Positions 11,246 to 29,173 of a stretch of DNA of 64,000 bases are shown here, one piece after another; the stretch's first letter is position 1; every line of letters begins with the position of its first letter. This DNA is from Tateyamaria omphalii (GTDB taxonomy: Bacteria > Pseudomonadota > Alphaproteobacteria > Rhodobacterales > Rhodobacteraceae), in NCBI RefSeq assembly GCF_014651375.1, contig NZ_BMWT01000004.1, forward strand, positions 372,001 through 436,000. Direction: 5' to 3'. A program made the translations under genes and the position numbers. The notes under the pieces were generated by a model. The model saw only the letters and a list, made by a program, of their open reading frames with translations. It had not been told where the DNA came from and did not search any database.

Positions 11246-11453
11246 CCCGTCAGCTTCTGAAACCATCGTCCAGATGGCTCTCAAGCCAATCATGCACCGA
11301 CATCTAAACTGGAACACGCAGTGTGATTGATCATTGGCCGCGGCGAAAGAGCCGCAACAAAATGACCAATCACTGAAACTATGCGTGCGGGGTAATTCAC
11401 TGGCACTACCCCGTTGGGAATATGGCTTGACTCATTTAAAAAATCCCACAATG

Positions 11454-11489
11454 CTGTATATTAGCACAAATGTGCCGTTATACAGAACA
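11454..11489. promoter_or_regulatory. Composite dyad upstream of aapJ (predicted IclR operator)
   Basis: The site TGTGCCGTTATACAGAACA (11471-11489) lies 14 bases before the aapJ start and resembles motifs at 17484-17502 and 21034-21052. A second copy in the opposite direction overlaps it, so the region reads CTGTATA, TTA, GCAC, AAAT, GTGC, CGT, TATACAG, a symmetrical 32-bp structure (11454-11485). Such an arrangement suggests two regulator dimers or one high-affinity site. Confidence 0.6.
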
Positions 11490-11503
11490 ACAGGGTAGAA
11501 AAG

Positions 11504-12538
11504 ATGATCAAGAAAATGACTCTTTCGGGTGTAGCGGCAGCTGCACTCTCATTGCTCCCAGCCATAGCGATGGCCGAGAGTCCAACCGTTCAACAAATCA
11601 AAGAGCGAGGCACCTTGCTTTGCTCAGGCCACAACGGAAGCTACTTTGGCTTTGTTGAAGTGAATGACAAAAATGAATGGAAAGGCCTCGACATCGACCT
11701 TTGCCGCGCGCTGACAACTGCGATTCTGGGCGACCCTGACGCGAACCAGATTGTGCCGCTTTCATGGGCACAGCGTTTCCCCGCGCTTCAGTCTGGCGAT
11801 GTCGATCTGATCATCAAGGCGACCGGTTGGACAATGGGCCGCGACACAGAGCTTGGCCTGCAATTTAGTCTGCCTTACTTCTTTGGTGGTACACAGTTCA
11901 TGGCCCATGGTGAACTTGGCATTACAGAAGCCAAAGACTTGGATGGTGGCACAATCTGCGTTGAGGCTGGTACGACGATCGAACGCATTGCAGCAAACTA
12001 TCTATCCACCATCGGTGTCGAGCACACTATGGTGTCCTACGAAAGCGCAGCCGAGCTGCGTGCCGCTTATGTAGCGAACCGCTGCGATGCCTTTGCGGGA
12101 TGGGGCCCGAACCTCGCGGTGCTGCGTGCCACCGAAATCGACAATCCGGATGCACATGTGATTCTGAGCGACCAGCTGTCTTCGGAGCCGATCTCTGCGG
12201 CTATGCGCCAAGGCGACGAAGAGTTCGTAGACGTTGTCAATTGGATGTTGGCTGCGATGCTGATCGCCGAAGAAGAAGGTATCACATCCGCCAACGTCGA
12301 AGAGATGGCCGCAAATCCACCCAACCCGCGCGTTGCGCGACTGCTTGGGTCAGAGCCTGGTATGGGCGAACGTCTGGGCCTTCGTGACACCTGGGCCCGC
12401 GAGATGATTGCAGCCGTCGGCAACTTTGCTGAGGTCTATGACCGCAACTTGGGCGCAGAGAGCCCCTACAATCTGGATCGTGGCCTGAACAACCTTTGGA
12501 GCCATGGCGGCGTGCTGTACGCGCCCATTCTGGACTAG
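11504..12538 (+). CDS. aapJ: Amino-acid ABC transporter substrate-binding protein (AapJ-type)
   Basis: A 344-residue periplasmic binding protein of the SBP family 3. A Sec signal peptide (KKMTLSGVAAAALSLLPAIAMA) is followed by TVQQIKERGTLLCSGHNG and GFVEVNDKNEWKGLDIDLCRAL, the AapJ/GltI-like signature. The length of about 340 residues fits AapJ-type rather than the 260-residue HisJ type. It heads the aapJQM operon. Its promoter carries the composite dyad shared with the two other island promoters, so the ligand may be a specialised amino acid rather than amino acids in general. No ATPase gene follows in this operon. Confidence 0.88.
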   Translation: MIKKMTLSGVAAAALSLLPAIAMAESPTVQQIKERGTLLCSGHNGSYFGFVEVNDKNEWKGLDIDLCRALTTAILGDPDANQIVPLSWAQRFPALQSGDVDLIIKATGWTMGRDTELGLQFSLPYFFGGTQFMAHGELGITEAKDLDGGTICVEAGTTIERIAANYLSTIGVEHTMVSYESAAELRAAYVANRCDAFAGWGPNLAVLRATEIDNPDAHVILSDQLSSEPISAAMRQGDEEFVDVVNWMLAAMLIAEEEGITSANVEEMAANPPNPRVARLLGSEPGMGERLGLRDTWAREMIAAVGNFAEVYDRNLGAESPYNLDRGLNNLWSHGGVLYAPILD

Positions 12539-12552
12539 TCCACAACAGCAAA

Positions 12553-12578
12553 TTGGGTCGGCCCATAGGTCGACCCAA
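12553..12578 (+). terminator. Attenuator hairpin between aapJ and aapQ
   Basis: Arms TTGGGTCG and CGACCCAA enclose a 10-base loop and are followed by AATTCT. It sits 15 bases past the aapJ stop. Such partial terminators or stabilisers after binding-protein genes keep the binding protein in excess over the permeases. Confidence 0.6.
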
Positions 12579-12603
12579 AATTCTATCCTTGCGGGGAAAC
12601 GAG

Positions 12604-13740
12604 ATGTCCAAAGCTGATGAGCTGCGCCTGAAGGCGAAGCGACGCAAAATACTCATTCAGACCGGGCTGATCGGTTTATCAATTGTAGTAATTTTCGGTG
12701 CAGTTGTTACCGCCCGCACAAACCTTCAATCGCTCGGACTAACGAGCGGTTTTGGCTTTCTTGCACGTAGCACTGGTTGGGATTACAGCTTTTCGCTTGT
12801 ACCCAAAACGATCATGGACCCTTACTCGCAGACGTTGTTTGTTGGGTTCTTGAATACCCTCTTCGTCGGCTTCATTGCGATTTTTCTTACCACTCTCTTT
12901 GGCTTCATAATCGGTACAGCACGGGACGCGTCGAACATTGCCATCAAGACAGCCGCTACGGTTTATGTCCAGATTTTCCGGAACATACCGCTGATCTTGC
13001 AGCTTGTTTTCCTGTATTCTGTGCTGATCAACATGCCCGGCCCACGCCAAGCGATGTCGATAGCAGACACGGTTTTCCTATCGAACCGAGGGCTGATGTT
13101 GCCGGGCTTGAGCGTAACTCCGGGCGTTGCGGTAGCGCTGTTGCTGGTCTCGCTTGCTTTTGGTGTCTTCCTGATCTGGCGAAAGTCCGATCTACTACGA
13201 GGCCTGCTGACGTGGGGCATTGGGTCCATCCTGATGTGTGTCATTGCAGCCATTGCGGTACGTCCCGAAGGCGCAAGCCTGGTTTCAGTACCGGAGCTCA
13301 AAGGCTTGCGGTTTCGGGGTGGCATAACGATCCCAATTGAGTTGTTAGGTATGATCGTTGCGATCACCCTTTATGGCAGTGCTTACATTGCCGAGGTTGT
13401 GCGTGGTGGCCTAGCGCAAGTGCCGAAAGGACTGACCGAGGCAGGTCAGGCACTTGGGTTGACCAAGGGGGCCATTTGGTCCCGGATCAAGATGCCCATG
13501 GCGCTGCGTTCCATCATTCCACCTTTGGGCAATCAGTGGATATTCATGATGAAGGCGACAACCATTGGTGTGGCGATCGGCTTCAGCGACCTTTTCTACA
13601 TTGTGTCCATCTCAATCACGCAATCGGGCCAGACGCTTGAACTGATTGCCATTCTGGCCGGCGCATTCCTTCTGGTGAACGGAGGCCTTGCTATCTTTAC
13701 CAACTGGCTCAACGCACGCATGAAATTGAAGGCGCATTGA
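12604..13740 (+). CDS. aapQ: Amino-acid ABC transporter permease (AapQ-type)
   Basis: A 378-residue inner-membrane permease of the HisM/AapQ type. The long periplasmic insertion between helices (RQAMSIADTVFLSNRGLMLPGL) is typical of AapQ/BztB. The ATPase-contact EAA loop is visible as RGGLAQVPKGLTEAGQALGLTKGAIWSRIKMPMALR near residue 285. ATG at 12604 follows GGGGAAACGAG; longer frames start inside the attenuator hairpin. It is followed one base later by the second permease gene. Confidence 0.88.
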   Translation: MSKADELRLKAKRRKILIQTGLIGLSIVVIFGAVVTARTNLQSLGLTSGFGFLARSTGWDYSFSLVPKTIMDPYSQTLFVGFLNTLFVGFIAIFLTTLFGFIIGTARDASNIAIKTAATVYVQIFRNIPLILQLVFLYSVLINMPGPRQAMSIADTVFLSNRGLMLPGLSVTPGVAVALLLVSLAFGVFLIWRKSDLLRGLLTWGIGSILMCVIAAIAVRPEGASLVSVPELKGLRFRGGITIPIELLGMIVAITLYGSAYIAEVVRGGLAQVPKGLTEAGQALGLTKGAIWSRIKMPMALRSIIPPLGNQWIFMMKATTIGVAIGFSDLFYIVSISITQSGQTLELIAILAGAFLLVNGGLAIFTNWLNARMKLKAH

Positions 13741-13741
13741 T

Positions 13742-14830
13742 ATGACAGATAAATCTGTAAATACGCCCATTTCCCTGGCTTCTGTTCGTCAAATTCTCAA
13801 GAAACGCGCTTTCTCTACACCAACAGACTCGGTGCTGACGTTTGTCGTGTTCGGTGCGCTCGCCTGGTTGGCCTGGAGCTTGTTCGATTGGGCGATCCTG
13901 CGGGCAGTATGGTCGGCAGAAAACGTCGCACAATGTGGTAAAGAAACGAGCGCGGGTGCCTGTTGGGCAGTCATTGACGCCCGTCACAGGCTGATCCTTT
14001 TTGGGCTTTACCCGTTTGATCAGCATTGGCGCTCGACACTTGCAGCGGTGGCAATCGTTGCGACGGTCGTGCTGTCGTGCATCCCTCTGATGTGGACAGC
14101 AAAGCGGATCATCACGCTTTGGATTCTTGGCTTCACGACTTATTATCTGCTGATGGAAGGCAGTCTGCTGGGGCTGCAACAGGTGACCACGGATGGCTGG
14201 GGCGGATTGTCTCTCACCTTGTTCCTTTTCTCGTCGGTCGTTCTGCTTGGAATGCCCATTGGTTTGGGCCTCGCGCTAATGCGCCGATCAGAAATGCCGT
14301 TTGTTCGAGGCTTTGCAGTCATCCTCATCGATTTCGTACGGTCCTTGCCGTTGCTGGTGACACTGTTTACCGCCGCTGTTGTCATACCAATCATTCTGCC
14401 CAGTTGGCTGGAAGGGGATAAGATCTGGCGTGTCATTGTCGCCTTCGCCCTGTTCTTTGCCTGCTATCAGGCGGAAGTTTTCCGGGGCGGCTTCCAGGCT
14501 ATTCCGAAGGGTCAGTTTGAGGCGGGTGCTGCGCTTGGCCTCACCTATTGGCAGACGCTGGGGCGGATCGTTCTACCTCAGGTGTTCCGTCATGCCCTGC
14601 CGTCAACGATCAATATGGTGGTGATCACCTTCAAGGAGACCGCGCTGGTGATCATCATCGGGTTCTTCGACATCATGGCGTCGGCGAAAGCCGCCTTCGG
14701 TACTGGTGAGTGGGCACCCCACTACCTTGAAGTGTACGTCTTTGTCGCATTTATCTACTGGGCCTTCATTTTCTCACTTGGCCAATATGGTGAGTATCTC
14801 AAAGGTCGTATGGCAATCTCAGAGCGCTAA
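13742..14830 (+). CDS. aapM: Amino-acid ABC transporter permease (AapM-type)
   Basis: A 362-residue permease that pairs with AapQ. It has about eight hydrophobic helices and the EAA loop FRGGFQAIPKGQFEAGAALGLTYWQTLGRIVLPQVFRH near residue 255. The start lies one base after the aapQ stop, so translation is coupled. The operon ends here at a strong terminator without a gene for the ATPase; the matching aapP-type gene lies at 29174, the far end of the island. Confidence 0.88.
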   Translation: MTDKSVNTPISLASVRQILKKRAFSTPTDSVLTFVVFGALAWLAWSLFDWAILRAVWSAENVAQCGKETSAGACWAVIDARHRLILFGLYPFDQHWRSTLAAVAIVATVVLSCIPLMWTAKRIITLWILGFTTYYLLMEGSLLGLQQVTTDGWGGLSLTLFLFSSVVLLGMPIGLGLALMRRSEMPFVRGFAVILIDFVRSLPLLVTLFTAAVVIPIILPSWLEGDKIWRVIVAFALFFACYQAEVFRGGFQAIPKGQFEAGAALGLTYWQTLGRIVLPQVFRHALPSTINMVVITFKETALVIIIGFFDIMASAKAAFGTGEWAPHYLEVYVFVAFIYWAFIFSLGQYGEYLKGRMAISER

Positions 14831-14863
14831 GACGTTTTGTAAATCACCTCTCCCTGAAACTTC

Positions 14864-14890
14864 AAAGGGCTGTCCCATGGCAGCCCTTTT
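14864..14890 (+). terminator. Rho-independent terminator of aapJQM
   Basis: Stem AAAGGGCTG / CAGCCCTTT with an 8-base loop followed by a T run (CCCTTTTCG). It lies 33 bases past the aapM stop. The stem is symmetrical enough to act on both strands, and the decayed gene on the minus strand ends toward it. Confidence 0.85.
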
Positions 14891-14909
14891 CGTAGCGCAT
14901 TTTTGACTC

Positions 14910-15568
14910 CAAAGGTTTGTTGACGGGTATTTTCAACGTCATGTTGCCGCCTCTGTCTTTTGGAACTTCGACTGCACTCATGTTGACCTGTAAAGCTGGG
15001 TTGATCAGCTTTTGCATGGCAAGCTGTGCTTCCCGTTTGGTGTGCATCCTGACAAAGGCACCCGGCTGGCACAGTTTCCGACGTGGACATTCACGTCTCC
15101 TCGTGCACCGATCGTAATTTGCCATTCAATGCGGCATCCCCCCGGCTTACGACCGTGGCTGACAAACAGACGCATGTTCTGGTGTAGTTCCAGCACACGC
15201 TGGATGGAAGCGTGCAATTGCCCGGCATTCCACCGGGTAGTTCGCTGGCGCAGATCCGCCATCTGGAATGAACAGTGTGTCACCCAAGACGGCCCCGTCT
15301 TTCAAGACATGAACCACACTTGTGTGAACATGAATCTCTATGATTTGTTCCAGAGGCGGCTTGCGCTTCTTGGTGACCCGAATGATCTCATCCGGGCACT
15401 GAAAGCTTGGATAACCTGCCGCAGGGTCAAATTCATCATAGCATCAAAAACGGCACATGCGAGGCCAACGAGATCCAACACCACATAGCTGATGCTATTG
15501 GATTGCGCGCTGAAGAATAACGCAACCTCGGCTTTGGCTTGCATCTGGATGGGGCGAAGGATGGTCAT
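14910..15568 (-). pseudogene. Decayed Blh/persulfide-dioxygenase-type metallo-beta-lactamase gene
   Basis: Three-frame conceptual translation of the minus strand recovers the family order of Blh/ETHE1-like enzymes: RPIQMQAKAEVALFFSAQSN and SISYVV; after a one-base loss near 15430 DPAAG, DEII, LEQIIEIHVHTSVVH (from an ancestral ETHVHADH); GDTLFIPDGGSA; after a shift near 15240 LHASIQRVLEL, MRLFVSHGRKPGG, GARGDVNVHVG; after a shift near 15110 REAQLAMQKLINPALQVN and LKIPVN. About 80 residues between the HxH motif and GDTLF are missing. It is thus frameshifted and internally deleted. Intact relatives oxidise persulfides and are often paired with BigR/SqrR regulators. Confidence 0.8.
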
Positions 15569-15586
15569 TCGCCCAGGCCCTTTTGT

Positions 15587-16225
15587 CTAGTCGAGAGTGA
15601 CAAGCCCGTTGGGGCAATCCAGTTCAAACGACAATGCGGCGCGGCCTTTGTAGACTGTGGCCAGATGATCCACGCCGATTTTGGCAAGCGTCTCAGACAG
15701 GGCTGCGGGGTCCGGATGGTGCAGGTTTACATTGGTCAGTTTGACGCCAAGATCTTGTTGGCCGGTCGACGGGTGCGGGCCGGGGGACCATTCAATGAAC
15801 GCAGGCAATAGCCCGCCCATGGGCAGGCCGCCATCCTTGGGTACGGTCAGCCGCCACGACCGATCGCCTCGGGTGAACAAAACGACCTCGCCCAGATCAA
15901 CGGGGCTCGCCGCGATCACTGCGTCCAGATCATCGGTGCCGACAACCCAGCACAGAGCACGTGGGCGGTTCGCGAGGCGGGTTTGCGTTGCAGGGTCATC
16001 CAGTGTGAACCAACGGGTCCGGCCGGGGTCTGGAGCATCTGGATCAATGGCGATCAGTTCAAAGAAGCTTTCGTTGCCTGACTGCATAACGCAATTGTGG
16101 GTGCTCATGGCGTCATGTTTGCCGCCGCGTGGCACCTCGACACCGAGGGCATCCTTCATTGCCGTGACGCCCTGTTCCAGTGTTTCGGCCCCGATGGCAA
16201 AGTGGTCAATTTTGTTGTTGGGCAT
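15587..16225 (-). CDS. Glyoxalase-like (VOC) protein
   Basis: A 212-residue protein of the Glyoxalase_3-like type. NKIDHFAIGAETLEQGVTAMKDALGVEVPRGGKHDAMSTHN at the start carries the first metal-ligand histidine in the family pattern, SGNESFFELIAIDPDAP follows, and a second half ends with LSFELDCPNGLVTLD. It begins 15 bases after the stop of the MetC-like gene on the same strand, so the two form an operon under the shared island operator. It could process a product of C-S bond cleavage, but no substrate can be named. Confidence 0.8.
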   Translation of the reverse strand: MPNNKIDHFAIGAETLEQGVTAMKDALGVEVPRGGKHDAMSTHNCVMQSGNESFFELIAIDPDAPDPGRTRWFTLDDPATQTRLANRPRALCWVVGTDDLDAVIAASPVDLGEVVLFTRGDRSWRLTVPKDGGLPMGGLLPAFIEWSPGPHPSTGQQDLGVKLTNVNLHHPDPAALSETLAKIGVDHLATVYKGRAALSFELDCPNGLVTLD

Positions 16226-16240
16226 AGGATGCGTATCCGT

Positions 16241-17416
16241 TCAAGAGTTCAAAAGGGGGAGTGCTGCGGCAAGATCTGCCTTCAGCGTGTCGGGGTCGTC
16301 CAACCCGATATTGAAGCGGACCAATTGTCCGTCTTCGTCCCAGCGTGTACTGGTGCGTGTGGGGGTGACGGGCAGCACCAGACTTTCATATCCACCCCAA
16401 CTGACGCCGATACCAAAGTGGTGTAATGCGTCAACAAAGGCGCGGATTTGATCGTCAGAACAGGGTTGAAATACCACGCCAAACAAACCAGCGGCACCCG
16501 TGAAATCCCGTTTCCAATGCGCGTGGCCCGGGCAGCTGTCAAAAGCGGGGTGTAGAAGGCGTTTAACCTGCGGTTGCGCGTCAAGCCACGCGGCTATGCC
16601 ACGCCCGGCCTTGTCGATGGCTTCCATCCGCACCTTGAGGGTGCGCAAACCGCGCAGTAACAAGAATATCTCTTGCCCGCCGGTTTTGTCGCCTACCGCC
16701 ATGACAGTGCCGCGAATTTGGTCATGATATGCTTGCGTACTGGCGATCATGCCCAGCATGCAGTCAGAGTGACCGCTCAGATATTTGGAACAGGATGCAA
16801 CAACCACATCCACATCCAACGTCAGCGGCTGGCAAAAAATCGGTGTGGCCCATGTGCTGTCGATGACCGATGGGACCCCAGCGGTGCGTGCCACTTGCGC
16901 AATGGCCGGGATGTCGGGCACTTCTAATGTACCAGATCCCGGGGCTTCAACCATGATGGCGCAGGTTTCATGCGTGATCAAATCAGACAGGCCCGAACCG
17001 ATCATCGGATCAAAGTATTCGATGGTAACATTCTGCCGCGACAGTACCTTGTCACAAAATGCTCGGGTGTTGGCATAGACATTGTCCGCTACAAGCAAAT
17101 GGGTTCCCGGAAGGGCAAAGGTCAGCAATGTCAGCGAAATAGCCGCGACACCGGAAGACGTCAGTGTGACGCCGTCGGCATGGTCCAAATCGGCCAAAGC
17201 GCATTCGAGCTGAAAGCTCGCTTCGTTGCCATAGCGCCCATAATACATGGTGCCGGTTTGATAGCGGGCGTCGCGTGCCGCTTCAAACTTGGCGAGTGAG
17301 TCGAAGACAATCGTCGATCCGAGCTCAATCGGCAGGTTGACATGGCGACCATCAATTTTGGCAGGGCGACCAGCATGTACAAGTTGATCCTGAACGGATT
17401 TGTGTTGAGATGACAT
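16241..17416 (-). CDS. MetC-like PLP-dependent C-S beta-lyase
   Basis: A 391-residue Cys/Met-metabolism PLP enzyme, closest in features to cystathionine beta-lyase. The cofactor-phosphate Tyr/Arg region YYGRYGN is at about residue 50, the PLP-stacking and binding stretch TSSGVAAISLTLL follows, and the Schiff-base lysine is in VASCSKYLSGHSD at about residue 200. ATG at 17416 has GGAAGG seven bases upstream; the longer frame from 17503 crosses the operator. Such enzymes release thiol, pyruvate and ammonia from S-substituted cysteines. Divergence from a BisC-type sulfoxide-reductase gene with an operator between them suggests sequential action on one sulfur compound; the biosynthetic MetC role is an alternative. 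Confidence 0.85.
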   Translation of the reverse strand: MSSQHKSVQDQLVHAGRPAKIDGRHVNLPIELGSTIVFDSLAKFEAARDARYQTGTMYYGRYGNEASFQLECALADLDHADGVTLTSSGVAAISLTLLTFALPGTHLLVADNVYANTRAFCDKVLSRQNVTIEYFDPMIGSGLSDLITHETCAIMVEAPGSGTLEVPDIPAIAQVARTAGVPSVIDSTWATPIFCQPLTLDVDVVVASCSKYLSGHSDCMLGMIASTQAYHDQIRGTVMAVGDKTGGQEIFLLLRGLRTLKVRMEAIDKAGRGIAAWLDAQPQVKRLLHPAFDSCPGHAHWKRDFTGAAGLFGVVFQPCSDDQIRAFVDALHHFGIGVSWGGYESLVLPVTPTRTSTRWDEDGQLVRFNIGLDDPDTLKADLAAALPLLNS

Positions 17417-17483
17417 TTGTGCCTTCCATATGCTAAGTTTTAGCCTGACAGTCTTGTGTAAGTGTGTCAATATTTGGCATATA

Positions 17484-17502
17484 TGTTCTTTATAGCGGAA
17501 CA
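17484..17502. promoter_or_regulatory. Predicted IclR operator between metC-like and bisC-like genes
   Basis: Read on the minus strand it is TGTTCCGCTATAAAGAACA, a dyad with TGTTC and GAACA arms nine bases apart. It is the most symmetrical of three similar sites and sits in the 109-base divergent promoter, 23 bases before the molybdoenzyme start. Confidence 0.65.
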
Positions 17503-17525
17503 ATCAATCCCATGGCGAGGCTCTC

Positions 17526-19826
17526 TTGGCGACAAAGACAACGAAATTGACTGCCAATCATTGGGGGGTTGGAACTGCCGAGGTGCAGGACGGCCGTATC
17601 GTCTCGATTGATGGACATCACGACGACCCAGACCCGTCACCTATCAATGGCAATGTTGCTGATAGCCTGAACGGACGTGCGCGGATCTTGCGTCCAGCGA
17701 TCCGCAAAAGCTGGTTGGACGGAAACCCGACAGCCGTGGCGCGCGGTCGGGATGCGTTTGTTGAGGTGTCTTGGGATCGTGCGCTCGATCTGGTTGCGGA
17801 TGAACTGAATCGCGTCAGGTCAACCCATGGCAATGAGGGCATTTTTGCGGGGTCATATGGCTGGTCAAGCGCAGGTCGTTTTCATCACGCGCAAAGCCAG
17901 CTCAAGCGCTTCCTGAACACCATCGGTGGGTTCTCTTATTCGGAGGGAAACTACAGCTACAACGCGGCACTTGTGATGATGCCATACATCGTCGGCCCGT
18001 TTCGGCAACACATTGCACAAGCGACCCGGTGGACGGTGATTGCCGAACACAGCGAGCTTGTGGTGATGTTTGGTGGCATGGCTATGCGCAACACTCAGGT
18101 CAGTGACGGCGGAGTCGGGACGCATCGTATGCGGGACAATTTGCGCAAATGTGCCGATGCTGGGGTCAAATTTGTCAACATCAGTCCACTTCGCACGGAT
18201 ACGGATGCATTTCTGGAGGCGGAATGGAAACCCGTGCATCCGGGCAGCGACACGGCACTGATGCTGGGTTTGAGTTATGTCCTTTGGTCCGAGGGGTTAA
18301 TGGATGAAGCGTTCTTGGCGAGGTACAGCGTCGGGTTTGATCAGTTCGAGAAATACCTTTCCGGCGATGCAGATGGCACGCCGAAAACGCCCGAATGGGC
18401 TGCCACCCATACCGGGTGGGCCGCCGATGATGTCACAGATCTGGCACGCAAGATGGCGGCGAACCGATGCATGATTTCGGTCGCGGCAGGTGTCCAGCGT
18501 ACAGATTATGGTGAACAGGCTTTGTGGATGGCGGTGACGTTGGCCGCGATGTTGGGTCAGATTGGTTTGCCAGGGGGCGGCTACACGATTGGGTACGGCG
18601 TGAATGCCAACGTGGGCAATATGGAACGCTTGTTCCGATGGGGGACGCTGCCACAAGGAAAGAACCCGGTTGCCAACGTCATCCCGGTTGCCATGATTGG
18701 CGAAATGCTGCGAAATCCGCGCGGCAACTACACCTACAAGGGAGAGACGCGGCAATTTCCCGATGCCCGTCTTGTCTGGTGGGCCGGGGGGAATCCCTTT
18801 CATCACCACCAAGACTTGCTGCGCTTGCACCACGCCTTTCAGTCTCCGGAGACGGTGATTGTCAACGACTTGAATTGGACATCGATGGCCCGGCACGCCG
18901 ACATAGTATTGCCTGTTGCCGCCGCTCAGGAACGCGATGACTTTGGAGCAGGCAAATCAGACAACGCCCTTGTGCCGATGCAAAAGCTTGCCGACCCGCC
19001 GGGTGAAGCGCGTGTTGAATTTGAGATTTTTCACGACTTGGCAGCACGACTGGGCACGGAAGAATTGTTTGCCGAGGGTAGATCGGCAGATGAATGGTTG
19101 CGCCATATTTGGGAGGAAACCCGCGAGGTTGGACAGCGCAATGGCGTGGCCCTGCCGGACTGGGAGACGTTCCATGCTGGCGATGTGATCAAACTGCCGG
19201 ACCCATCCCCCCATCAGGTCTTTCTGTCTGATTTCCGCGCTGATCCAGTTGCGCATCCGTTGCCGACGCCCAGTGGCTTAATCGAGATCTATTCAGAAAC
19301 GCTGGCGGGTTTTGGCCTGCCGGATTGCAAAGGCCACGCAAGCTACTTTGCGCCGCGCGACCTTTCGGCGGACGAAGGCGAGCTGTTCTTGTTGTCCGGC
19401 CAACCAAAGACACGGCTGCATAGTCAGTTGGATAATGGGGCCTACAGTCTAAGCCGCAAAATCAAGGGGCGCGAACCGGTTTTGATCCACCCGTATGATG
19501 CCGAGGTGAGGGGCATATCGGACGGGGATGTTGTGGAGTTGTTCAACGCACGCGGGCGCTGTCTGGCTGGTGCGCGCGTCACGGATGAGGTGCTTGAAGG
19601 GTGTGTGTTTCTCTGGACCGGTGCCTGGTGGGATCCTGATTTTGATGCGCCTCAAGCCCGTGACCGGCACGGCAATCCCAACGCACTGACCCATGACGAA
19701 CGCACCTCCAATTTGTCGCAGTCTCCGGCATCTCATTCTGCGCGCGTATCGCTGCGTCGTTTCGAAGGCACTGTCCCTGAGATCACTGTTCACGCGCCGC
19801 CTGTGCTGTATAGTGAAACAGATTAA
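17526..19826 (+). CDS. BisC/TorZ-type molybdopterin S- or N-oxide reductase
   Basis: A 766-residue DMSO-reductase-family enzyme of the biotin-sulfoxide-reductase type. It lacks the N-terminal iron-sulfur cysteine motif and any Tat signal, so it is cytoplasmic. The molybdenum-ligand serine is in GSYGWSSAGRFHHAQ near residue 120, and molybdopterin contacts include NPFHHHQD and DLNWTSMARHADIVLPVAA. The C-terminal cap has GQPKTRLHSQLDNG. The start is a TTG with GGCGAGG just upstream. The adjacent MetC-like lyase and shared operator favour reduction of a sulfur amino-acid sulfoxide; biotin or methionine sulfoxide are alternatives. It is co-transcribed with the IclR gene. Confidence 0.88.
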   Translation: MATKTTKLTANHWGVGTAEVQDGRIVSIDGHHDDPDPSPINGNVADSLNGRARILRPAIRKSWLDGNPTAVARGRDAFVEVSWDRALDLVADELNRVRSTHGNEGIFAGSYGWSSAGRFHHAQSQLKRFLNTIGGFSYSEGNYSYNAALVMMPYIVGPFRQHIAQATRWTVIAEHSELVVMFGGMAMRNTQVSDGGVGTHRMRDNLRKCADAGVKFVNISPLRTDTDAFLEAEWKPVHPGSDTALMLGLSYVLWSEGLMDEAFLARYSVGFDQFEKYLSGDADGTPKTPEWAATHTGWAADDVTDLARKMAANRCMISVAAGVQRTDYGEQALWMAVTLAAMLGQIGLPGGGYTIGYGVNANVGNMERLFRWGTLPQGKNPVANVIPVAMIGEMLRNPRGNYTYKGETRQFPDARLVWWAGGNPFHHHQDLLRLHHAFQSPETVIVNDLNWTSMARHADIVLPVAAAQERDDFGAGKSDNALVPMQKLADPPGEARVEFEIFHDLAARLGTEELFAEGRSADEWLRHIWEETREVGQRNGVALPDWETFHAGDVIKLPDPSPHQVFLSDFRADPVAHPLPTPSGLIEIYSETLAGFGLPDCKGHASYFAPRDLSADEGELFLLSGQPKTRLHSQLDNGAYSLSRKIKGREPVLIHPYDAEVRGISDGDVVELFNARGRCLAGARVTDEVLEGCVFLWTGAWWDPDFDAPQARDRHGNPNALTHDERTSNLSQSPASHSARVSLRRFEGTVPEITVHAPPVLYSETD

Positions 19827-19843
19827 TCGCAGCAGCGAATGAG

Positions 19844-20623
19844 TTGGAGGATGATCCCATCGCCGAAGTAAAAGAGCCGAAAGTAGACTCAACCCTGTCA
19901 AAAGGCCTTTCTATTTTGGAAACGCTTGCAGGGTCATCTTCGAGTATGGGTGTAACGGAACTTGCCAAGTCCTTGGAACTGACAAAATCCAACACGTTCC
20001 GGCTTTTGCAATCGCTCTCGGTGCTGGGATATGTGCGCCAGAACCCTGATAAGACCTATGCCGCAACTTTAAAGACATGGCAGGTCGGACGAATTCTACT
20101 GGATAACCTCAATCTTAGGGAATTGGCGGCTCCCGAGATGAAGTATTTGTCTTCGGAGACCGGAGAGGCGATTTATCTCGCCGTTCTGGAGGATTTGTCA
20201 GTCATCTATATCGACAAGCGCGACAGCCTGAAGCCCATCAGGTCATGGAACCCGGTTGGTGGATCGGCACCGTTGCACTGTGTCGGCACGGGCAAGGCGA
20301 TCTTGGCGCAGGACTACAAGGAATTGCGACCTCAGATCAGCGGGCGACTGACCCGGCATACAGAGCTGACCCTGACCAACCTCACCGATCTCGATGCAGA
20401 TATGGAAGAAACTCGGCGTCGCGGCTACGCTTATGACAAGGGCGAGTTTCGCGACAAAATATTGAGTGTCGGTGCTGCTGTTTGCTTGCCAAATGGCAAA
20501 CCGATTGCGGCACTTGGTATATCGCTCCCGATTGTGAACATGCCGGACAAAGGCATCGACTGGCTGGGGTCACTTGTGGCGCATGCCGCCACAAGTGTTT
20601 CGAGTAAGGTCGCAAAGACCTGA
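19844..20623 (+). CDS. IclR-family transcriptional regulator of the island
   Basis: A 259-residue regulator. The winged helix (STLSKGLSILETLAGSSSSMGVTELAKSLELTKSNTFRLLQSLSVLGYV) occupies about residues 15-65, and the effector domain shows the family pattern LHCVGTGKAILA, RRRGYAYDKGEF and ALGISLP. The start appears to be a TTG at 19844, 17 bases after the molybdoenzyme stop, so the genes are one transcript. It is the only regulator inside the island, and IclR proteins bind short dyads near promoters, so it is the natural candidate to bind the three TGTKCC...GAACA sites. Confidence 0.9.
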   Translation: MEDDPIAEVKEPKVDSTLSKGLSILETLAGSSSSMGVTELAKSLELTKSNTFRLLQSLSVLGYVRQNPDKTYAATLKTWQVGRILLDNLNLRELAAPEMKYLSSETGEAIYLAVLEDLSVIYIDKRDSLKPIRSWNPVGGSAPLHCVGTGKAILAQDYKELRPQISGRLTRHTELTLTNLTDLDADMEETRRRGYAYDKGEFRDKILSVGAAVCLPNGKPIAALGISLPIVNMPDKGIDWLGSLVAHAATSVSSKVAKT

Positions 20624-20626
20624 GCG

Positions 20627-21028
20627 CTACTTCTTTTTGATTTCCTCGATAGGGCCGCCCTTTTCCGCCCAGGTCGAAAAGCCTTCTTTGAGGTGCGCGG
20701 CTTCAAAACCCATGTCCTTAAGGGTGGCCACCGTCAGCGCAGAGCGCCAGCCTGATGCGCAGTGGAACACGTATTTCTTGCCCTCCTGGCCAAAGACTTC
20801 CTTGAAGTAGGGGCTATCGGGATCAACCCAGAACTCGATCATGCCACGCGGCGCGTGGACAGATCCCGGAATCGCGCCGCTGCGCTGCCGCTCTCGGATG
20901 TCGCGGATGTCAACGATGACGACATTCGGGTCCTGCAACATTCCAATGAGGTCTGCGGTTTCAATCTCAGCGATGCGGCTACGCGCCGCTTTCACCATTT
21001 CCGCCGCAGTGGTTTTTAGCTTCTTCAT
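20627..21028 (-). CDS. Single-domain rhodanese (sulfurtransferase)
   Basis: A 133-residue cytoplasmic protein with one rhodanese domain. VVIVDIRDIRERQRSGAIPGSVHAPRG marks the first half, and the active loop FHCASGWRSA at about residue 90 carries the persulfide cysteine. Such proteins move sulfane sulfur from thiosulfate or persulfides to acceptors. It converges with the IclR gene (3 bases between stops), and its start codon is six bases from one of the island operators, so it is likely controlled with the divergent amine-oxidase operon. This fits handling of the thiol or persulfide released by a C-S lyase. Confidence 0.9.
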   Translation of the reverse strand: MKKLKTTAAEMVKAARSRIAEIETADLIGMLQDPNVVIVDIRDIRERQRSGAIPGSVHAPRGMIEFWVDPDSPYFKEVFGQEGKKYVFHCASGWRSALTVATLKDMGFEAAHLKEGFSTWAEKGGPIEEIKKK

Positions 21029-21033
21029 GTCAA

Positions 21034-21052
21034 TGTGCCATTATTTAGAACA
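21034..21052. promoter_or_regulatory. Predicted IclR operator between rhodanese and amine-oxidase operon
   Basis: TGTGCCATTATTTAGAACA, matching the site before aapJ at 15 of 19 positions (19 of 22 counting the identical preceding AA and the bases around it was not used). It lies five bases before the rhodanese start and 92 bases before the oxidase start. Confidence 0.6.
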
Positions 21053-21144
21053 GATATTTCACATATTGACACGACTGCACCTCTGTTGCAACCTCTTGGA
21101 ATACTGCCCGTTCTGACAGTCATTACTTTTAATAGGGTGCCTCC

Positions 21145-22419
21145 ATGACCAAAGAAGCTGCTATTTCGTTGTGGGATTCCTCTTCGGCCGAGGAAGATTA
21201 CTCGAATGAAGACCTCGGTGATGTGACTGTCGACGTTGCCATTGTTGGTGGCGGTTTCACCGGCCTTTCGACAGCGTTGCACTGCGCGGAAACAGGGCTC
21301 TCTGCGCACGTCATTGAAGCCAAGCAGATCGGTTTTGGTGGGTCTGGACGGAACTGTGGGCTGGTCAATGCTGCCCTTTGGTTGCCGCCACAAAAGGTCC
21401 GTGAGAAGTTAGGCACAACTTACGGCCCCCGGTTCATCAAGAAGTTTGGTAGCGGCCCAGAATATGTCTTTTCGCTGATCGAGAAGCATCAGATTCGGTG
21501 TGAAGTCACACGCACCGGAACAATCCATGCGGCGCACGGTCCAAGCGGCTTTGTTGATTTAAAGGAGCGACACAAGGAGTGGGTTCGATTGGGAGAACCG
21601 GTCGATCTGCTTACCCGCTCCGAAGTCTCGGAGATGATCGGGACCAAGCGTTTTTTTGGCGGTCTCTTGGACCACCGATGTGGCACGATCAATCCAATGG
21701 GGTACTGCCGGGGCCTTGCACGTGCAGCCTTGGGTGCCGGGGCAAAGATCAGCACAGGAATACGGGCTAAGAAGCTCGTTCGGGATGGTGATTTGTGGAG
21801 AGTAGAAACCGATAAAGGAACGTTGACCGCCAAGGCAGTGGTTTTGGGCACAAACGCCTACACCGACGAGCTTTGGCCTGATCTCAACCGCATTTTCACC
21901 ATGATCCATTACTTTCAACTGGCGACAAAGCCCATGGGACCGGAAGCGGATCATATTCTGCCGGGTAAGCAGGGCCTTTGGGATACCGGACAAATCATGT
22001 TCAATATCCGCCGCGATGCGTTCGATCGTTTGCTTGTCGGATCAATGGGAAAGGTTGTGGGCAGCAAGGATCGCGGTCTGTCCCACCGTTGGGCGAAGAG
22101 GCAGATCGAGCGGATTTTCCCGGATCTGGGACCGGTTGAATTTGACGAGGCCTGGCATGGTCAGATTGCTATGACACCGGATCACCTGCCGCGTATCTAC
22201 GAACTTGAAACCAACCTGTTCACGCCAATTGGATACAACGGGCGCGGCATAACAACCGGAACGATGTTTGGTGAAACGATGGCCGGGCTTTTGACGGGCA
22301 TGGATCGCACTGATCTGCCTTTGCCTATGACCGATATGAGGACTGTACGCTCAGCGCCGATCTTTTCGCGCATCTATCAATCAGCGTTTACAGCCAACCA
22401 AGTACTCAAGGCGATCTAG
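21145..22419 (+). CDS. FAD-dependent amine/D-amino-acid-type oxidoreductase
   Basis: A 424-residue DAO-superfamily flavoprotein. The Rossmann dinucleotide motif is VDVAIVGGGFTGLSTALHCAETG at about residue 32, GSGRNCGLVNA follows, and the C-terminal FAD contact is PIGYNGRGITTGTMFGE at about 370. The overall form resembles gamma-glutamylputrescine oxidase or glycine/sarcosine oxidase-like enzymes, which oxidise amines or N-alkyl amino acids to imines. It is the first gene of a tight operon with hyuA, hyuB, an SDR, an acyl-CoA synthetase, ridA and aapP. RidA in the same operon fits imine formation by this enzyme. Confidence 0.87.
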   Translation: MTKEAAISLWDSSSAEEDYSNEDLGDVTVDVAIVGGGFTGLSTALHCAETGLSAHVIEAKQIGFGGSGRNCGLVNAALWLPPQKVREKLGTTYGPRFIKKFGSGPEYVFSLIEKHQIRCEVTRTGTIHAAHGPSGFVDLKERHKEWVRLGEPVDLLTRSEVSEMIGTKRFFGGLLDHRCGTINPMGYCRGLARAALGAGAKISTGIRAKKLVRDGDLWRVETDKGTLTAKAVVLGTNAYTDELWPDLNRIFTMIHYFQLATKPMGPEADHILPGKQGLWDTGQIMFNIRRDAFDRLLVGSMGKVVGSKDRGLSHRWAKRQIERIFPDLGPVEFDEAWHGQIAMTPDHLPRIYELETNLFTPIGYNGRGITTGTMFGETMAGLLTGMDRTDLPLPMTDMRTVRSAPIFSRIYQSAFTANQVLKAI

Positions 22420-22422
22420 GAT

Positions 22423-24510
22423 ATGACGTATTTCAAGACCCGTGTCGGTGTGGATATCGGCGGAACTTTCACCGATGTGGCTCTGGATCATGGGGGGAAT
22501 TTGTCCACCTGCAAGGTGCTTACCAACTACAGTCAACCAGAACAGGCCATTTTGGATGGGATCGCGCTTGCTGCCTCTCAGGCGGGAGTTGGTTTGGGGG
22601 AGATTGAACAAGTCATTCATGGTACAACGCTTGTGACCAACGCGTTGATCGAACGCCGTGGGGCGAAGCTGGCTTTTATCACGACCGAAGGGTTTCGGGA
22701 TGTGATCGAGATGCGGTCTGAAAACCGGTTTGAGCAATATGACCTGAACCTGACGTTGCCCACGCCGCTGGTTCCGCGACAGGATCGATTTACGCTGAAT
22801 GAACGTATGGGGCCGTCGGGCGAAGTTTTACTTCCGCTTGATGCCGGTGAAGTTCAGCAGATGGTGCAGCAAGTTTTGGATGGCGGGTATGAGGCCGTCG
22901 CCATCGGGTTGATGCATTCCTACGCCAATGACGTCCATGAAGTTGCAATGGCGGAAGCTTTGCAGGCCGAAGCACCGGAGCTTTCTGTCTCGATCTCCTC
23001 AGTTATCTCGCCACAGATGCGCGAGTTACCCCGGTTCAATACGGTGATCGCGAACGCCTATGTACAGCCACAAGTTGCCGACTACTTGGGTCGCCTCGTG
23101 AGCCGTCTGCGTGACAAGGGCGTGTCTGCGCCGGTCTACATGCTGCATTCGGGAGGCGGGTTGATGTCTGTACAAGATGCGTCCGAGCAACCTGTCCGCT
23201 TGCTGGAGTCCGGGCCGGCGGGGGGGGCGATATTTGCTGCAGACTTCGCTCGTGCGCATGGACTGAATAAGGTGCTGAGCTTTGATATGGGCGGCACCAC
23301 TGCCAAGATTTGCTTAATCGAGGAAGGCACGCCCAAGACAGCAAACACCTTTGAAGTTGCGCGCACCTATCGGTTCAAGAAAGGGTCGGGCATGACCGTT
23401 TCGACTCCAGTGGTCGAGATGGTGGAAATTGGCGCCGGTGGTGGGTCAATTGCTTCCATTGATGCCATGGGGCGCATTCAGGTGGGTCCAAAGTCAGCCG
23501 CCTCAGAACCCGGTCCCGCCTGCTATGGGCGCGGTGGAAAAGAGCCGACAGTCACAGATTCGAACCTGTTACTGGGCCGACTTGATCCGACTTTTTTTGC
23601 GGGCGGCGCGATCCCGCTGCACCCCTCTGCCTCAAACGCTGCAGTCACCGCGCGACTGACGGAACTGACGGGGCTTAGCGTGCAAGACGCTGCCTTTGGT
23701 GTGACTGAGATGGTCGATGAAAACATGGCCAATGCCGCGCGTGTTCACACCGTCGAGAATGGTCGTGACATCGAGCACTTCACTTTGGTGGGTTTTGGCG
23801 GAGGCGCGCCATTGCATGCCTGCAGGCTGTGCGAAAAGCTGGGGATTAACGCTTTGCTGATCCCGCCAGGCGCGGGCGTGGGTTCTGCCATTGGGTTTTT
23901 GAAAGCGCCATTCAGCTATGAGGCCTCGCGCGGGATGTTCCAGCGGTTGTCGGCCTTTGATGCGGGCGCCGTAAACAGATTACTGACTGAGCTCGAGGCC
24001 GAGGCCCGCACCTTTGTCGAGGCGGGCGCTACGGGGCAGCCGATCAAGACGAAACTCACCGCCTTCATGCGCTATTCAGGTCAGGGTTGGGAAATCCCAG
24101 TCTCTCTATCGCACAAGACGTTTGAAGACAGTGATAGCGCCACGATCTTGGCGGCTTTTGAAGATGCCTACCGTGTACTGTTCGGACGCACCATTGATGG
24201 GTTGGCCTGCGAAATTACCAACTGGTCCTTGATCGTGTCGACGGTTTTGGAAGACGTTTCAAAGGCCGATGGGCACCGCAGCGGAACACCCATTGCTATT
24301 TTGCGCGAGCGTGAGTTTTACGACGCAGCCCTGCGTCGCACGGTCACCGCTCAGGAGGTTGCCCGCGAAGCATTGACTCCTGGCACCGCAGTCGACGGGC
24401 CGGCCATTGTCGTAGAGCGTGAAACGACCACAATTGTAACGTCTGCTTTCCGCGTGGTGGGGCAAGGCGACGGCAGCTTATTGCTCTTGCGTAAGGAGAC
24501 GGCGGCATGA
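22423..24510 (+). CDS. hyuA: Hydantoinase/oxoprolinase subunit A (ATP-dependent amidohydrolase)
   Basis: A 695-residue HyuA-type subunit. RVGVDIGGTFTDVALDH at the start is the acetate/sugar-kinase-type phosphate loop of the N-terminal Hydant_A_N domain, followed by VIHGTTLVTNALIERRGAKLAFITTEGFRD. The central hydantoinase_A domain has LLESGPAGGA and LSFDMGGTTAKICLIEEG, then the glycine-rich VEIGAGGGSIA. HyuA and HyuB together open a hydantoin, 5-oxoproline or related lactam ring using ATP. It begins three bases after the oxidase stop. The presence of this pair implies that the substrate or an intermediate is cyclic. Confidence 0.92.
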   Translation: MTYFKTRVGVDIGGTFTDVALDHGGNLSTCKVLTNYSQPEQAILDGIALAASQAGVGLGEIEQVIHGTTLVTNALIERRGAKLAFITTEGFRDVIEMRSENRFEQYDLNLTLPTPLVPRQDRFTLNERMGPSGEVLLPLDAGEVQQMVQQVLDGGYEAVAIGLMHSYANDVHEVAMAEALQAEAPELSVSISSVISPQMRELPRFNTVIANAYVQPQVADYLGRLVSRLRDKGVSAPVYMLHSGGGLMSVQDASEQPVRLLESGPAGGAIFAADFARAHGLNKVLSFDMGGTTAKICLIEEGTPKTANTFEVARTYRFKKGSGMTVSTPVVEMVEIGAGGGSIASIDAMGRIQVGPKSAASEPGPACYGRGGKEPTVTDSNLLLGRLDPTFFAGGAIPLHPSASNAAVTARLTELTGLSVQDAAFGVTEMVDENMANAARVHTVENGRDIEHFTLVGFGGGAPLHACRLCEKLGINALLIPPGAGVGSAIGFLKAPFSYEASRGMFQRLSAFDAGAVNRLLTELEAEARTFVEAGATGQPIKTKLTAFMRYSGQGWEIPVSLSHKTFEDSDSATILAAFEDAYRVLFGRTIDGLACEITNWSLIVSTVLEDVSKADGHRSGTPIAILREREFYDAALRRTVTAQEVAREALTPGTAVDGPAIVVERETTTIVTSAFRVVGQGDGSLLLLRKETAA

Positions 24511-26153
24511 GTACCCCTAGCAGCATCGACCTTCAGATCATGTGGAACCGCCTGATCGCGGTTGTCGAAGAACAGGCCACAACACTGATCCGAACCGCCT
24601 TCTCAACCTCGGTCCGTGAGGCAGGCGATCTTTCGGCAGGTCTTTTTGATCGTCAAGGTCGGATGATCGCGCAAGCTGTGACAGGAACGCCGGGCCATGT
24701 GAATGCCATGGCCGAAAGTGTGACGCACTTCGTCGCCGAAATTGGTGTGCAGGATATTTTCGAAGGCGATGTCCTGATCACCAACGACCCATGGATGGGT
24801 ACAGGGCATCTGCACGATATCACCATTGTTAGTCCGGTGTTCCGCAAAGGCACCCATATCGGCTATTTCGCCTGCACGGCCCATGTGGTCGACATCGGTG
24901 GGCGCGGTTTTGGGCCGGACGGGAATGAGGTTTTTGAAGAAGGTCTGCTGATCCCGATCATGAAATTTGCCGAACGGGGGCAGGTGTCAAAGGACTTGGT
25001 CCGCCTGATCCGGGCCAATGTGCGGACACCGGATCAAACAGTAGGAGACATCTATTCGCTTGCGGCGTGTAACGAAGCCGGTGACCGACGCCTGCAGGCG
25101 ATGCTGGATGAGTTTGGCAGTGATGACATTGATGCGCTGTCGGAGTTCATCATCGAGACCAGCCGCAAAGCCACGCTAGCGGCCATCGCCAAAGTGCCGG
25201 ATGGCAGCTTTGACCACGCCATGCAGGTCGATGGTTACGATGCGCCGGTGGACATGCAGGTGCGGCTGGACATCAAAGGCGACAGTCTGATTGCGGATTT
25301 TGCGGGCACATCGGGAATGAGTAAATTCGGCGTCAACTGCCCCGAAGTTTATACCCGTGCCTATGCCTGCTACGGGCTGAAATGCGCAATTGCGCCGCAG
25401 GTGCCCAACAACACCGGCTCGCTCGAACCGTTCCAGATCACCGCACCCGAAGGCTGCATACTGGCGGCCAAACGGCCCGCACCCGTTTCCGTGCGCCACG
25501 TCATGGGGCATTTGGTGCCCGACGTGGTTTTGGGAGCCCTACATAAAGCGTTGCCGAATACCGTGCCTGCCGAAGGGGCGTCGGCCTTGTGGAATATCCA
25601 GATATCGGCGCGCGCCAGTGATCCAGCCAGTAATCTACCCCGCAGGGAGATCCTGATGTTCAATTCAGGCGGTACCGGTGCGCGGCCGTCCCACGACGGG
25701 TTGTCCGCGACGGCGTTTCCCTCTGGCGTATCCACGATGAGCGTTGAGGCCACAGAGCATGTTGGGCCGATCACCGTCTGGCGCAAGGATTTGCGGGCAG
25801 GATCTGGCGGGGCTGGTGCACAGAGGGGCGGGCTTGGCCAAACAATCGAGATTGAAGCGCGTGAGGGGTATGATTTCTACTTCAATGCTATGTTTGACCG
25901 GGTCAAGAATGCGGCCCGTGGGCGCGATGGCGGCAGTCCGGGTGCTGCAGGCAAAGTTGAATTGTCAGACGGAACCGAACTGCCATCCAAGGGGCGGCAG
26001 CTGGTGAAGAATGGCCAACGCCTGCGCCTCAGCCTGCCCGGTGGTGGTGGGTTTGGTGCCGCGTCCGAACGGCCCAAAGACCAAGTGGTAGCAGATTTGA
26101 AAGCTGGGTTCATCACGCCCGAACAGGCCAAATCAAATTACGGATATGAATGA
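24507..26153 (+). CDS. hyuB: Hydantoinase/oxoprolinase subunit B
   Basis: A 548-residue HyuB-type subunit overlapping hyuA as ATGA. IMWNRLIAVVEEQATTLIRTAFSTSVREAGDLSAGLFDRQGRMIAQA is the N-terminal family signature. DVLITNDPWMGTGHLHDITIVSP near residue 90 is the conserved core, and GGTGARPSHDGLSATAFPSG lies in the last third. The protein ends in a glycine-rich SLPGGGGFG segment typical of the family. It works with HyuA; substrates in the family include hydantoins, N-methylhydantoin, 5-oxoproline and acetophenone derivatives, so the pair alone does not fix the substrate. Confidence 0.92.
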   Translation: MSTPSSIDLQIMWNRLIAVVEEQATTLIRTAFSTSVREAGDLSAGLFDRQGRMIAQAVTGTPGHVNAMAESVTHFVAEIGVQDIFEGDVLITNDPWMGTGHLHDITIVSPVFRKGTHIGYFACTAHVVDIGGRGFGPDGNEVFEEGLLIPIMKFAERGQVSKDLVRLIRANVRTPDQTVGDIYSLAACNEAGDRRLQAMLDEFGSDDIDALSEFIIETSRKATLAAIAKVPDGSFDHAMQVDGYDAPVDMQVRLDIKGDSLIADFAGTSGMSKFGVNCPEVYTRAYACYGLKCAIAPQVPNNTGSLEPFQITAPEGCILAAKRPAPVSVRHVMGHLVPDVVLGALHKALPNTVPAEGASALWNIQISARASDPASNLPRREILMFNSGGTGARPSHDGLSATAFPSGVSTMSVEATEHVGPITVWRKDLRAGSGGAGAQRGGLGQTIEIEAREGYDFYFNAMFDRVKNAARGRDGGSPGAAGKVELSDGTELPSKGRQLVKNGQRLRLSLPGGGGFGAASERPKDQVVADLKAGFITPEQAKSNYGYE

Positions 26154-26164
26154 GGAAAAGACGC

Positions 26165-26911
26165 ATGAGTGACACGCCAATTGCATTGATTTCCGGTGCG
26201 GCACAAGGCATCGGGCTGGCCTGCGCCGAGGCTCTGGCCGAAGATGGCTACAAGGTTATTCTGGCTGACATCAAGCCAGAAGTCGAAGCCGAAGGCACGC
26301 GTCTGGGTGGTGCAGGCTATGTTTGTGATTTTGGCGATGTGGATGCGATTGGTACACTTTTTGACGCCATCGAGGCCGACCATGGCCCGGTCAGTGCGCT
26401 GGTCAACAATGCAGGCATTGCGATACCCGGTGATTTCCTGTCTTACGATCTGGCTGCCTTTGACGCCGTTTTGGGTGTCAATCTACGTGGGGTTTTTGTG
26501 GCCACTCAGCGGGCTGCGAAAACAATGGTAGACGAGGGCATCGAAGGCGCCATCGTCAATATGTCTTCGATCAACGCACAAGTCGCAATCCCGGCGATCC
26601 CGGCCTATTGCGCCTCCAAAGGCGGGGTCATGCAACTGACCAAAGTGGCTGCACTTGCACTCGCCAAGAATAACATCCGCGTAAACGCTGTTGGCCCTGG
26701 TTCGATTGATACCGAGATGATGGCAGGCGTAAACGCCAACCCGCAAGCCTACAAAATGGCCATGTCGCGCACCCCACTGGGCCGGGCTGGCAGCGCGCGC
26801 GAAATCGCCGATGTCGTAGCATTTCTTTGTTCGTCCAAGTCCAGCTATGTGACGGGCGAGACGATCTATGTCGATGGCGGCCGACTTGGGCTCAACTACG
26901 TGATGTCATGA
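26165..26911 (+). CDS. Short-chain dehydrogenase/reductase
   Basis: A 248-residue classical SDR. Cofactor motif SGAAQGIGLACAEALAEDG at about residue 8 and DIKPE after the second strand (an acidic residue favouring NAD); NNAG at about 83; catalytic Ser in NMSSINAQ and YCASK (Y-x-x-x-K) at about 145-149; the C terminus is VTGETIYVDGG. ATG at 26165 follows GAGGAAAAG. It overlaps the acyl-CoA synthetase gene as ATGA. It likely interconverts an alcohol and a carbonyl in the pathway, for example a hydroxy-acid intermediate before CoA activation. Confidence 0.88.
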   Translation: MSDTPIALISGAAQGIGLACAEALAEDGYKVILADIKPEVEAEGTRLGGAGYVCDFGDVDAIGTLFDAIEADHGPVSALVNNAGIAIPGDFLSYDLAAFDAVLGVNLRGVFVATQRAAKTMVDEGIEGAIVNMSSINAQVAIPAIPAYCASKGGVMQLTKVAALALAKNNIRVNAVGPGSIDTEMMAGVNANPQAYKMAMSRTPLGRAGSAREIADVVAFLCSSKSSYVTGETIYVDGGRLGLNYVMS

Positions 26912-28809: not shown

Positions 28810-28812
28810 AAT

Positions 28813-29157
28813 ATGATTGAACGCCTTCACACATCCGACCGGATGAGCAAAATCGTCAAACACAACGGTGTCGTCTATCTCTGCGGGCAGGTTGGGGTCG
28901 GGGACAATGTGACCGAACAGACCCAAGACTGCCTTGCCCGCGTTGACGCCTTGTTGGGGGAGGCCGGGTCTGACCGCTCTCACATCCTGCAAGCGACCAT
29001 CTGGCTCGCCAATATGGCGGATTTCCAGGAAATGAACGCTGTTTGGGATGCCTGGATTCCTTCCGAACATGCCCCAGCGCGGGCCTGCGGTGAAGCGAAA
29101 CTCGCCAGAGACATATTGAAAGTTGAAATCATCGTAACCGCGGCCATCAAGCCATAG
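28813..29157 (+). CDS. RidA-family enamine/imine deaminase
   Basis: A 114-residue RidA/YjgF-type protein. The conserved Arg that binds the substrate carboxylate is in [14 protein letters not shown] (about residue 93-97), and LCGQVG precedes the trimer interface; [15 protein letters not shown] is the family's central helix. RidA hydrolyses reactive 2-aminoacrylate and other imines made by PLP lyases and amine oxidases. It lies three bases after the synthetase gene and is followed by aapP. Its presence fits both the MetC-like lyase and the FAD oxidase of this island. Confidence 0.9.
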
Positions 29158-29173
29158 CGATAGGGAGAGTATC

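Follow-up and report, generated by a model that had tools for sequence, protein, structure and literature searches.

Known IclR-family systems and the island regulator

The closest described systems belong to the IclR family of bacterial regulators. The E. coli IclR protein works as a tetramer, and BhcR of Paracoccus denitrificans is a reported activator, with a proposed dual role, of the β-hydroxyaspartate cycle genes; a potential palindrome lies upstream of the bhcA −35 element (available excerpts of PMC11323563). The IclR group 1 motif is given as a 17–18 bp palindrome, GKTYCRYW3-4RYGRAMC, and tandem IclR-family sites with 18–22 nt between centres are reported in 94 orthologous groups and interpreted as tetramer binding (Suvorova and Gelfand 2021; PMC8222616, in the parts available). 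PheR of Sphingobium is an IclR-family repressor of a catabolic operon, with a 44-bp footprint from +23 to −21 (PMC13273656, excerpted text).

Here we describe an 18-kb island of Tateyamaria omphalii, lying within the window (the whole 64-kb stretch of DNA that was analysed), in which 19-bp dyads form predicted tandem operators for the island's own IclR-family protein. The island is a well-supported new example of an already known type of control, since tandem IclR-family sites with centres 18–22 nt apart have already been published (PMC8222616, in the parts available). A run of genes with family-level names thereby becomes one defined predicted regulon of three operator pairs, five units and one regulator. 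For IclR biology, this adds one more predicted tandem operator, shared between genera of one family, which we call Roseobacter-like on the basis of named relatives (Roseobacter, Tateyamaria, Shimia and Actibacterium).

By eye, the 17-bp cores of the island sites agree with the group 1 motif at 15, 15 and 14 of 17 positions; they differ in that the left half has G more commonly than T as its third base, and the right half has A in place of G. The island's tandem centres, 21 nt apart, fall within the published 18–22 nt range. Unlike the published sites, the island pair is asymmetric, with one strong site and one weak site that includes a predicted −35 hexamer (comparisons with PMC8222616, in the parts available). 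The PheR footprint is about the size of the island's 40-bp pairs and is placed like the pair at aapJ, but its operator sequence and pathway differ (PMC13273656, excerpted text). Like BhcR, the island protein is an alphaproteobacterial IclR-family member with a potential palindrome upstream of a −35 element; the target genes differ (PMC11323563, excerpts). The term Rhodobact is absent from the main text of PMC8222616, as far as that text is available. The open-licence literature yielded nothing linking IclR and pipecolate in Roseobacter, no Rhodobacteraceae GAACA motif, and nothing on a BlcR tetramer with inverted repeats; among the titles listed for caprolactamase, pipecolate and cystathionine, none concerned this island.

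The island protein satisfies both family domain models (PF09339 at 59.4 bits, cut-off 22; PF01614 at 120.1 bits, cut-off 24). More specific assignments were rejected: BhcR, the best NCBIfam score, reached 156.7 bits against a cut-off of 350 (NF045644), and the KdgR, IclR and PcaR-PcaU-PobR models reached 132.1, 129 and 111.5 bits against 275, 380 and 284.75. The acetate operon repressor IclR, KdgR and the blcABC repressor (PDB 2o99, 1ysp, 3mq0) are distant sequence relatives. A preliminary description of this DNA held that the island encodes a single regulator, and the IclR protein is indeed the sole regulator recognised among the island proteins searched; the genome as a whole encodes six IclR_C proteins.

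Gene content of the island

The island comprises the following genes, whose names are family-level only.

11504–14830, plus strand: aapJQM, an amino-acid-type ABC transporter (binding protein and two permeases); aapJ and aapM from profile searches, aapQ named from its position and the preliminary description
15587–16225, minus strand: Glyoxalase_3-domain protein (profile search)
16241–17413, minus strand: metC-like C-S lyase (profile search; β-lyase model passed at 389.2, cut-off 365.9)
17526–19826, plus strand: bisC-type molybdopterin S/N-oxide reductase (bisC_fam 883.7 bits, below the cut-off of 1017.55)
19844–20623, plus strand: iclR, IclR-family regulator with HTH_IclR and IclR_C domains (domain and profile searches)
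20627–21028, minus strand: rhodanese-domain protein (profile search)
21145–29911, plus strand: amaA-like FAD oxidase, capA/capB-like pair, SDR, acyl-CoA synthetase, RidA and aapP ATPase (profile searches)

The capA/capB-like pair is of the ATP-dependent lactamase or hydantoinase type. Both it and the oxidase score below the NCBIfam cut-offs (AmaA-like, 446.5 of 600; CapAB-like, 441 of 1000 and 207.4 of 1000). The ATPase gene aapP lies at the end of the amaA unit, while the remaining Aap subunits are encoded in another unit.

Strong sites in the window and the genome

The preliminary description had drawn a dyad motif from three 19-mers in promoter gaps, each of which lies at the position and on the strand assigned to it.

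11471–11489, plus strand: predicted strong operator site before aapJ; exact match to the preliminary pattern, rank 1 with both matrix and de novo motif
17484–17502, minus strand: predicted strong operator site in the divergent metC/bisC gap; exact match, rank 2 with both
21034–21052, plus strand: predicted strong operator site in the divergent rhodanese/amaA gap; exact match, rank 3 with both

The copy at 17484 has the perfect TGTTC/GAACA arms attributed to it. Pairwise identity, put earlier at 15–16 of 19, is 16 for two of the pairs, but the third pair matches at only 14 of 19. These three exact matches are circular as evidence, because the consensus was derived from those very sites. With up to three mismatches allowed, the window contains five matches against 0.18 expected from shuffles, and none of 100 shuffles reached five. 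A scan of the complete genome (4.75 Mb) found no exact match beyond the three window dyads. At up to three mismatches it gave 21 matches against 12 for the reversed pattern, and matches with three mismatches are therefore mostly background. Exactly two mismatches occur in two places only, the window site at 19802 described below and C2:226912. Neither C2:226912 nor C8:16189 was accepted as a further regulon member, since they lie inside open reading frames of 298 and 579 aa, respectively. For a broader pattern with at most one mismatch, five of the eight genome-wide matches lie in the island (reversed control, one). The genome-wide scan suggested in the preliminary description thus did not turn up many equally good matches in unrelated promoters.

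Because the initial matching in relatives used the preliminary pattern, we added matrix and de novo controls. The scoring matrix, trained solely on sites from other genomes, ranks the four main sites (the three above and 19802) first to fourth in the window, with scores of 29.5, 26.5, 26.3 and 19.4; the highest value reached in 20 random sequences of 64 kb was 17.1. When one promoter class was omitted from training, the window site of that class still ranked among the first four. The de novo search covered 33 intergenic regions from other genomes, with no seed from the preliminary pattern. Its best motif, TGTTCtATATAtCaGCACA, is the same as the dyad motif, and its top seven places in the 64-kb window are the four main sites and three partner sites lying 21 bp from the strong ones. 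A further candidate at 59403–59421 (minus strand), between DsbD_TM and Sulf_transp genes, was not accepted; its score of 15.2 was reached by two of the 20 random sequences.

Partner sites and 21-bp tandem pairs

The three partner sites were previously unreported and had been missed in the preliminary description.

11450–11468, minus strand: weaker partner 21 bp from the strong aapJ site, overlapping a predicted −10; rank 5 by matrix, 4 by de novo motif
17463–17481, plus strand: weaker partner 21 bp from the strong site in the metC/bisC gap; rank 6 by both
21055–21073, minus strand: weaker partner 21 bp from the strong site in the rhodanese/amaA gap; rank 8 by matrix, 7 by de novo motif

Their matrix scores are 18.0, 16.9 and 14.9, of which the last two lie inside the range of the 20 random sequences, so the case for the window partners rests on their exact 21-bp spacing. 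Among 34 strong sites, of which the window supplied three, 18 have a partner with a matrix score of 10 or more at +21 and six have one at −21; the remaining 50 offsets examined (15 to 40, either side) gave no such partner. Ten of the 34 strong sites have no such partner. The working unit would then be a tandem of two sites, one strong (19 bp) and one weaker, which share a face of the DNA, have centres 21 bp (two helical turns) apart and could be filled by two dimers of one tetramer. From the 21-bp spacing alone, we infer a tetramer that binds DNA as a dimer of dimers. The TTGACAC within the weak site may be conserved as a −35 element and not as an operator.

A fourth site before iclR

An additional site, overlooked in the preliminary description, lies within the 3′ end of the bisC coding sequence, 23 bp before the iclR start codon at 19844. 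It played no part in building the original consensus.

19802–19820, minus strand: predicted fourth site, two mismatches; rank 4 by matrix, 5 by de novo motif

This site lacks the 21-bp tandem arrangement that holds at the other three promoters. Among 21 iclR leaders of 120 bp, the window's included, five contain a site scoring at least 13.7 (the window, G063, MH60115, G313 and G144), and the other 16 hold nothing scoring above 1.0. A single site before iclR would give autoregulation in the window's lineage, and because only five of 21 leaders carry one, such autoregulation is likely confined to part of the group.

Conservation in relatives

An ortholog of this IclR (E 1e-60 or better) is encoded in 17 of the 394 family genomes examined, own genome included; six relative loci from named records (Roseobacter, Tateyamaria, Shimia and Actibacterium) were also compared. 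The motif stands at equivalent places in 18 of 20 relative islands; those of G007 and G110 contain no motif at up to four mismatches. By promoter class, a site is found in all eight aapJ leaders extracted from relatives (at most four mismatches), in 12 of 14 bisC-upstream gaps (G345 included; G126 and G110 have at most degenerate sites), and in all 16 rhodanese/amaA or iclR/amaA gaps (G127 included). Beyond these 16, the amaA-gap site also occurs in G193 and in a second cluster of G269.

Co-distribution of the tandem pair with this IclR

We scanned the 394 family genomes for the 39-bp composite pair at up to three mismatches. It occurs at 21 places in 13 genomes, and the reversed-pattern control at none. 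All 13 are among the 17 genomes with an IclR ortholog, and none is among the 377 without one (Fisher p ∼3e-21, a value that ignores relatedness). Of the four ortholog-bearing genomes without the composite, G255 and G313 still have recognisable single sites, G110 has at most a degenerate pair by eye, and none was seen in G007. Of the 21 places, 20 lie inside iclR islands, and the other belongs to G269, where it falls in the gap between rhodanese and amaA of a distinct metC..amaA-capAB-SDR-acs cluster. The island of this genome is split, with a composite at the bisC/iclR half and another at the metC..amaA-capAB half, ∼559 kb apart. In G269 the site thus accompanies the genes, and control of the detached half would be in trans.

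The pattern holds among the 22 genomes with a capA of at least 65% identity, in which the composite occurs in 11 of 13 genomes with an IclR ortholog versus none of nine without (p 2e-4, relatedness ignored). In those nine genomes, the best relatives of this IclR are 27–31% identical, and three have none at E 1e-20. Eight of the nine capA regions have no convincing site; their best score, 10.7, lies outside the cluster. Next to capA, amaA was found in six of these eight, the exceptions being G014 and G065. In the ninth, G174, even a cut-off of E 1e-20 yields no IclR ortholog, and this genome carries a degenerate pair scoring 15.0, with TTGAC in the partner, and a second weak site scoring 14.6. 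A different IclR-like gene, recognised by eye (L131:11278-12078), lies beside the amaA-capAB cluster with this degenerate pair, and regulator replacement is possible there. The single predicted IclR regulon proposed earlier is the best-supported reading, in view of the sites in 18 of 20 relative islands, a composite that tracks the IclR ortholog over 394 genomes, its presence at both halves of the split G269 island, and its absence from the nine capA genomes without the ortholog.

Promoter architecture and regulatory logic

The pairs overlap predicted core promoters.

11428–11456, plus strand: predicted aapJ core promoter TTGACT-N17-AATGCT, by eye
21066–21094, plus strand: predicted amaA core promoter TTGACA-N17-CAACCT, conserved in a 17-sequence comparison

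In the 17 amaA gaps compared, TTGACA is present in 16, CAA after a 17-bp spacer in 16, and the final T in 13. The weak site at 21055–21073 holds the predicted amaA −35 TTGACA, and the weak site at 17463–17481 holds that predicted for metC on the minus strand; by eye, the predicted metC promoter is a mirror image of the amaA arrangement. The aapJ pair extends over the predicted −10 and the region of the start. The divergent bisC and rhodanese genes begin just past the strong sites. Three pairs would serve five predicted units: aapJQM; metC with the Glyoxalase_3 gene; bisC-iclR; rhodanese; and amaA-capAB-SDR-acs-ridA-aapP. The rhodanese gene and bisC would join the regulon by adjacency only.

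The paired sites are very probably targets of this IclR, so that transporter and enzymes would be switched together. We consider it highly likely that the dyads are operators of the island's own regulator, arranged as tandem pairs that serve five units under repression relieved by a metabolite. A ligand-responsive tetramer, most likely a repressor, would occupy the pairs until a pathway metabolite relieved repression and co-induced the transporter and enzymes. This is the simplest single logic, because the pairs overlap the predicted −35 elements of amaA and metC and the predicted −10 and start of aapJ. Judged from the position of the sites, repression by a tetramer is favoured. What the sequences themselves establish is that the sites are present, regularly spaced, conserved and co-distributed with this IclR; from this we infer binding, the tetramer, the promoters, the operon limits and repression.

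The serious rival to repression keeps the same regulator and sites but gives them opposite signs, with activation of amaA and metC and repression of aapJ, bisC, rhodanese and iclR, because BhcR is a reported activator for which a dual role has been proposed, with a potential palindrome upstream of the bhcA −35 (PMC11323563, excerpts). We regard such dual control as possible, if rather unlikely. The upstream position of the pairs at amaA and metC also suits an activator: with the start assumed 7 bp after the predicted −10, the amaA sites have their centres near −58 (strong) and −37 (weak), and the predicted amaA −10 is conserved yet poor. However, the aapJ pair covers the predicted −10 and start, so that induction there would need release, and opposite signs would be odd for a transporter whose subunits are split between the aapJ and amaA units.

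It is much less probable that another factor, an IclR paralog or an unlinked global regulator, reads the motif and that the linked IclR is incidental. The genome offers six IclR_C proteins, and G174 has its degenerate pair without a close ortholog of this one; against this, the composite is absent from all 377 sampled genomes lacking the ortholog, both halves of the split G269 island carry it, and the iclR leaders of G313 and G144 contain sites of their own. Least credible of all, and in our view barely worth entertaining, is a likeness of intergenic DNA through chance or shared ancestry, with no regulatory meaning. The relatives do share descent, and the consensus was originally built from the sites themselves, but across genera the motif recurs at three separate promoters, paired at exactly 21 bp, the leave-one-class-out matrix still places the omitted window site in the first four, and the four main sites outscore the best of 20 random sequences.

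Candidate pathway and island variants

Co-control by the predicted IclR repressor would link the Aap transporter with the S/N-oxide reductase, the C-S lyase and the lactamase-type operon, and so help to narrow down the substrate. As a speculation that we think improbable as a whole, the regulon could mark out an undescribed pathway whose substrate is an oxidised cyclic amino acid that contains sulfur. After Aap uptake, the BisC-type enzyme would reduce the S-oxide and the pipecolate-oxidase-like AmaA would oxidise the product; the CapAB-like ATP-dependent lactamase would then open the ring, MetC would cleave the C-S bond, and the rhodanese would handle the sulfur. Either this cyclic compound or its imine might be the IclR ligand. 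One candidate class of substrate is the thiomorpholine-type algal amino acids, chondrine among them.

Several relatives have altered islands. In G342 (L062/L063) and Roseobacter sp. WL0113 (L042), tblastn matches for aap, metC and acs are partial or broken, as is that for bisC in G342; those for iclR, amaA and capAB are full-length and the operator sites are kept. These two islands look like island decay. Four reduced islands (L058, L059, L066/L067 and L056/L057, from G313, G126, G144 and G255) keep iclR, amaA and capAB, with a site before amaA. Within the stretches fetched, rhodanese is present in two of the four (G313 and G255), an SDR gene next to capB in three, bisC next to iclR in one (G126), and aapJQM and metC in none. 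Ten neighbour proteins of the reduced islands, among them CoxE, XdhC, a MoCo-binding protein and a TRAP transporter, gave no clearer idea of the substrate. A TRAP transporter lies near the reduced island of G255. A second, remoter capA-like group (∼49–62% identity) is widespread in the family, and capA-like matches at E 1e-200 occur in 129 of the 394 genomes, the 22 close ones included.
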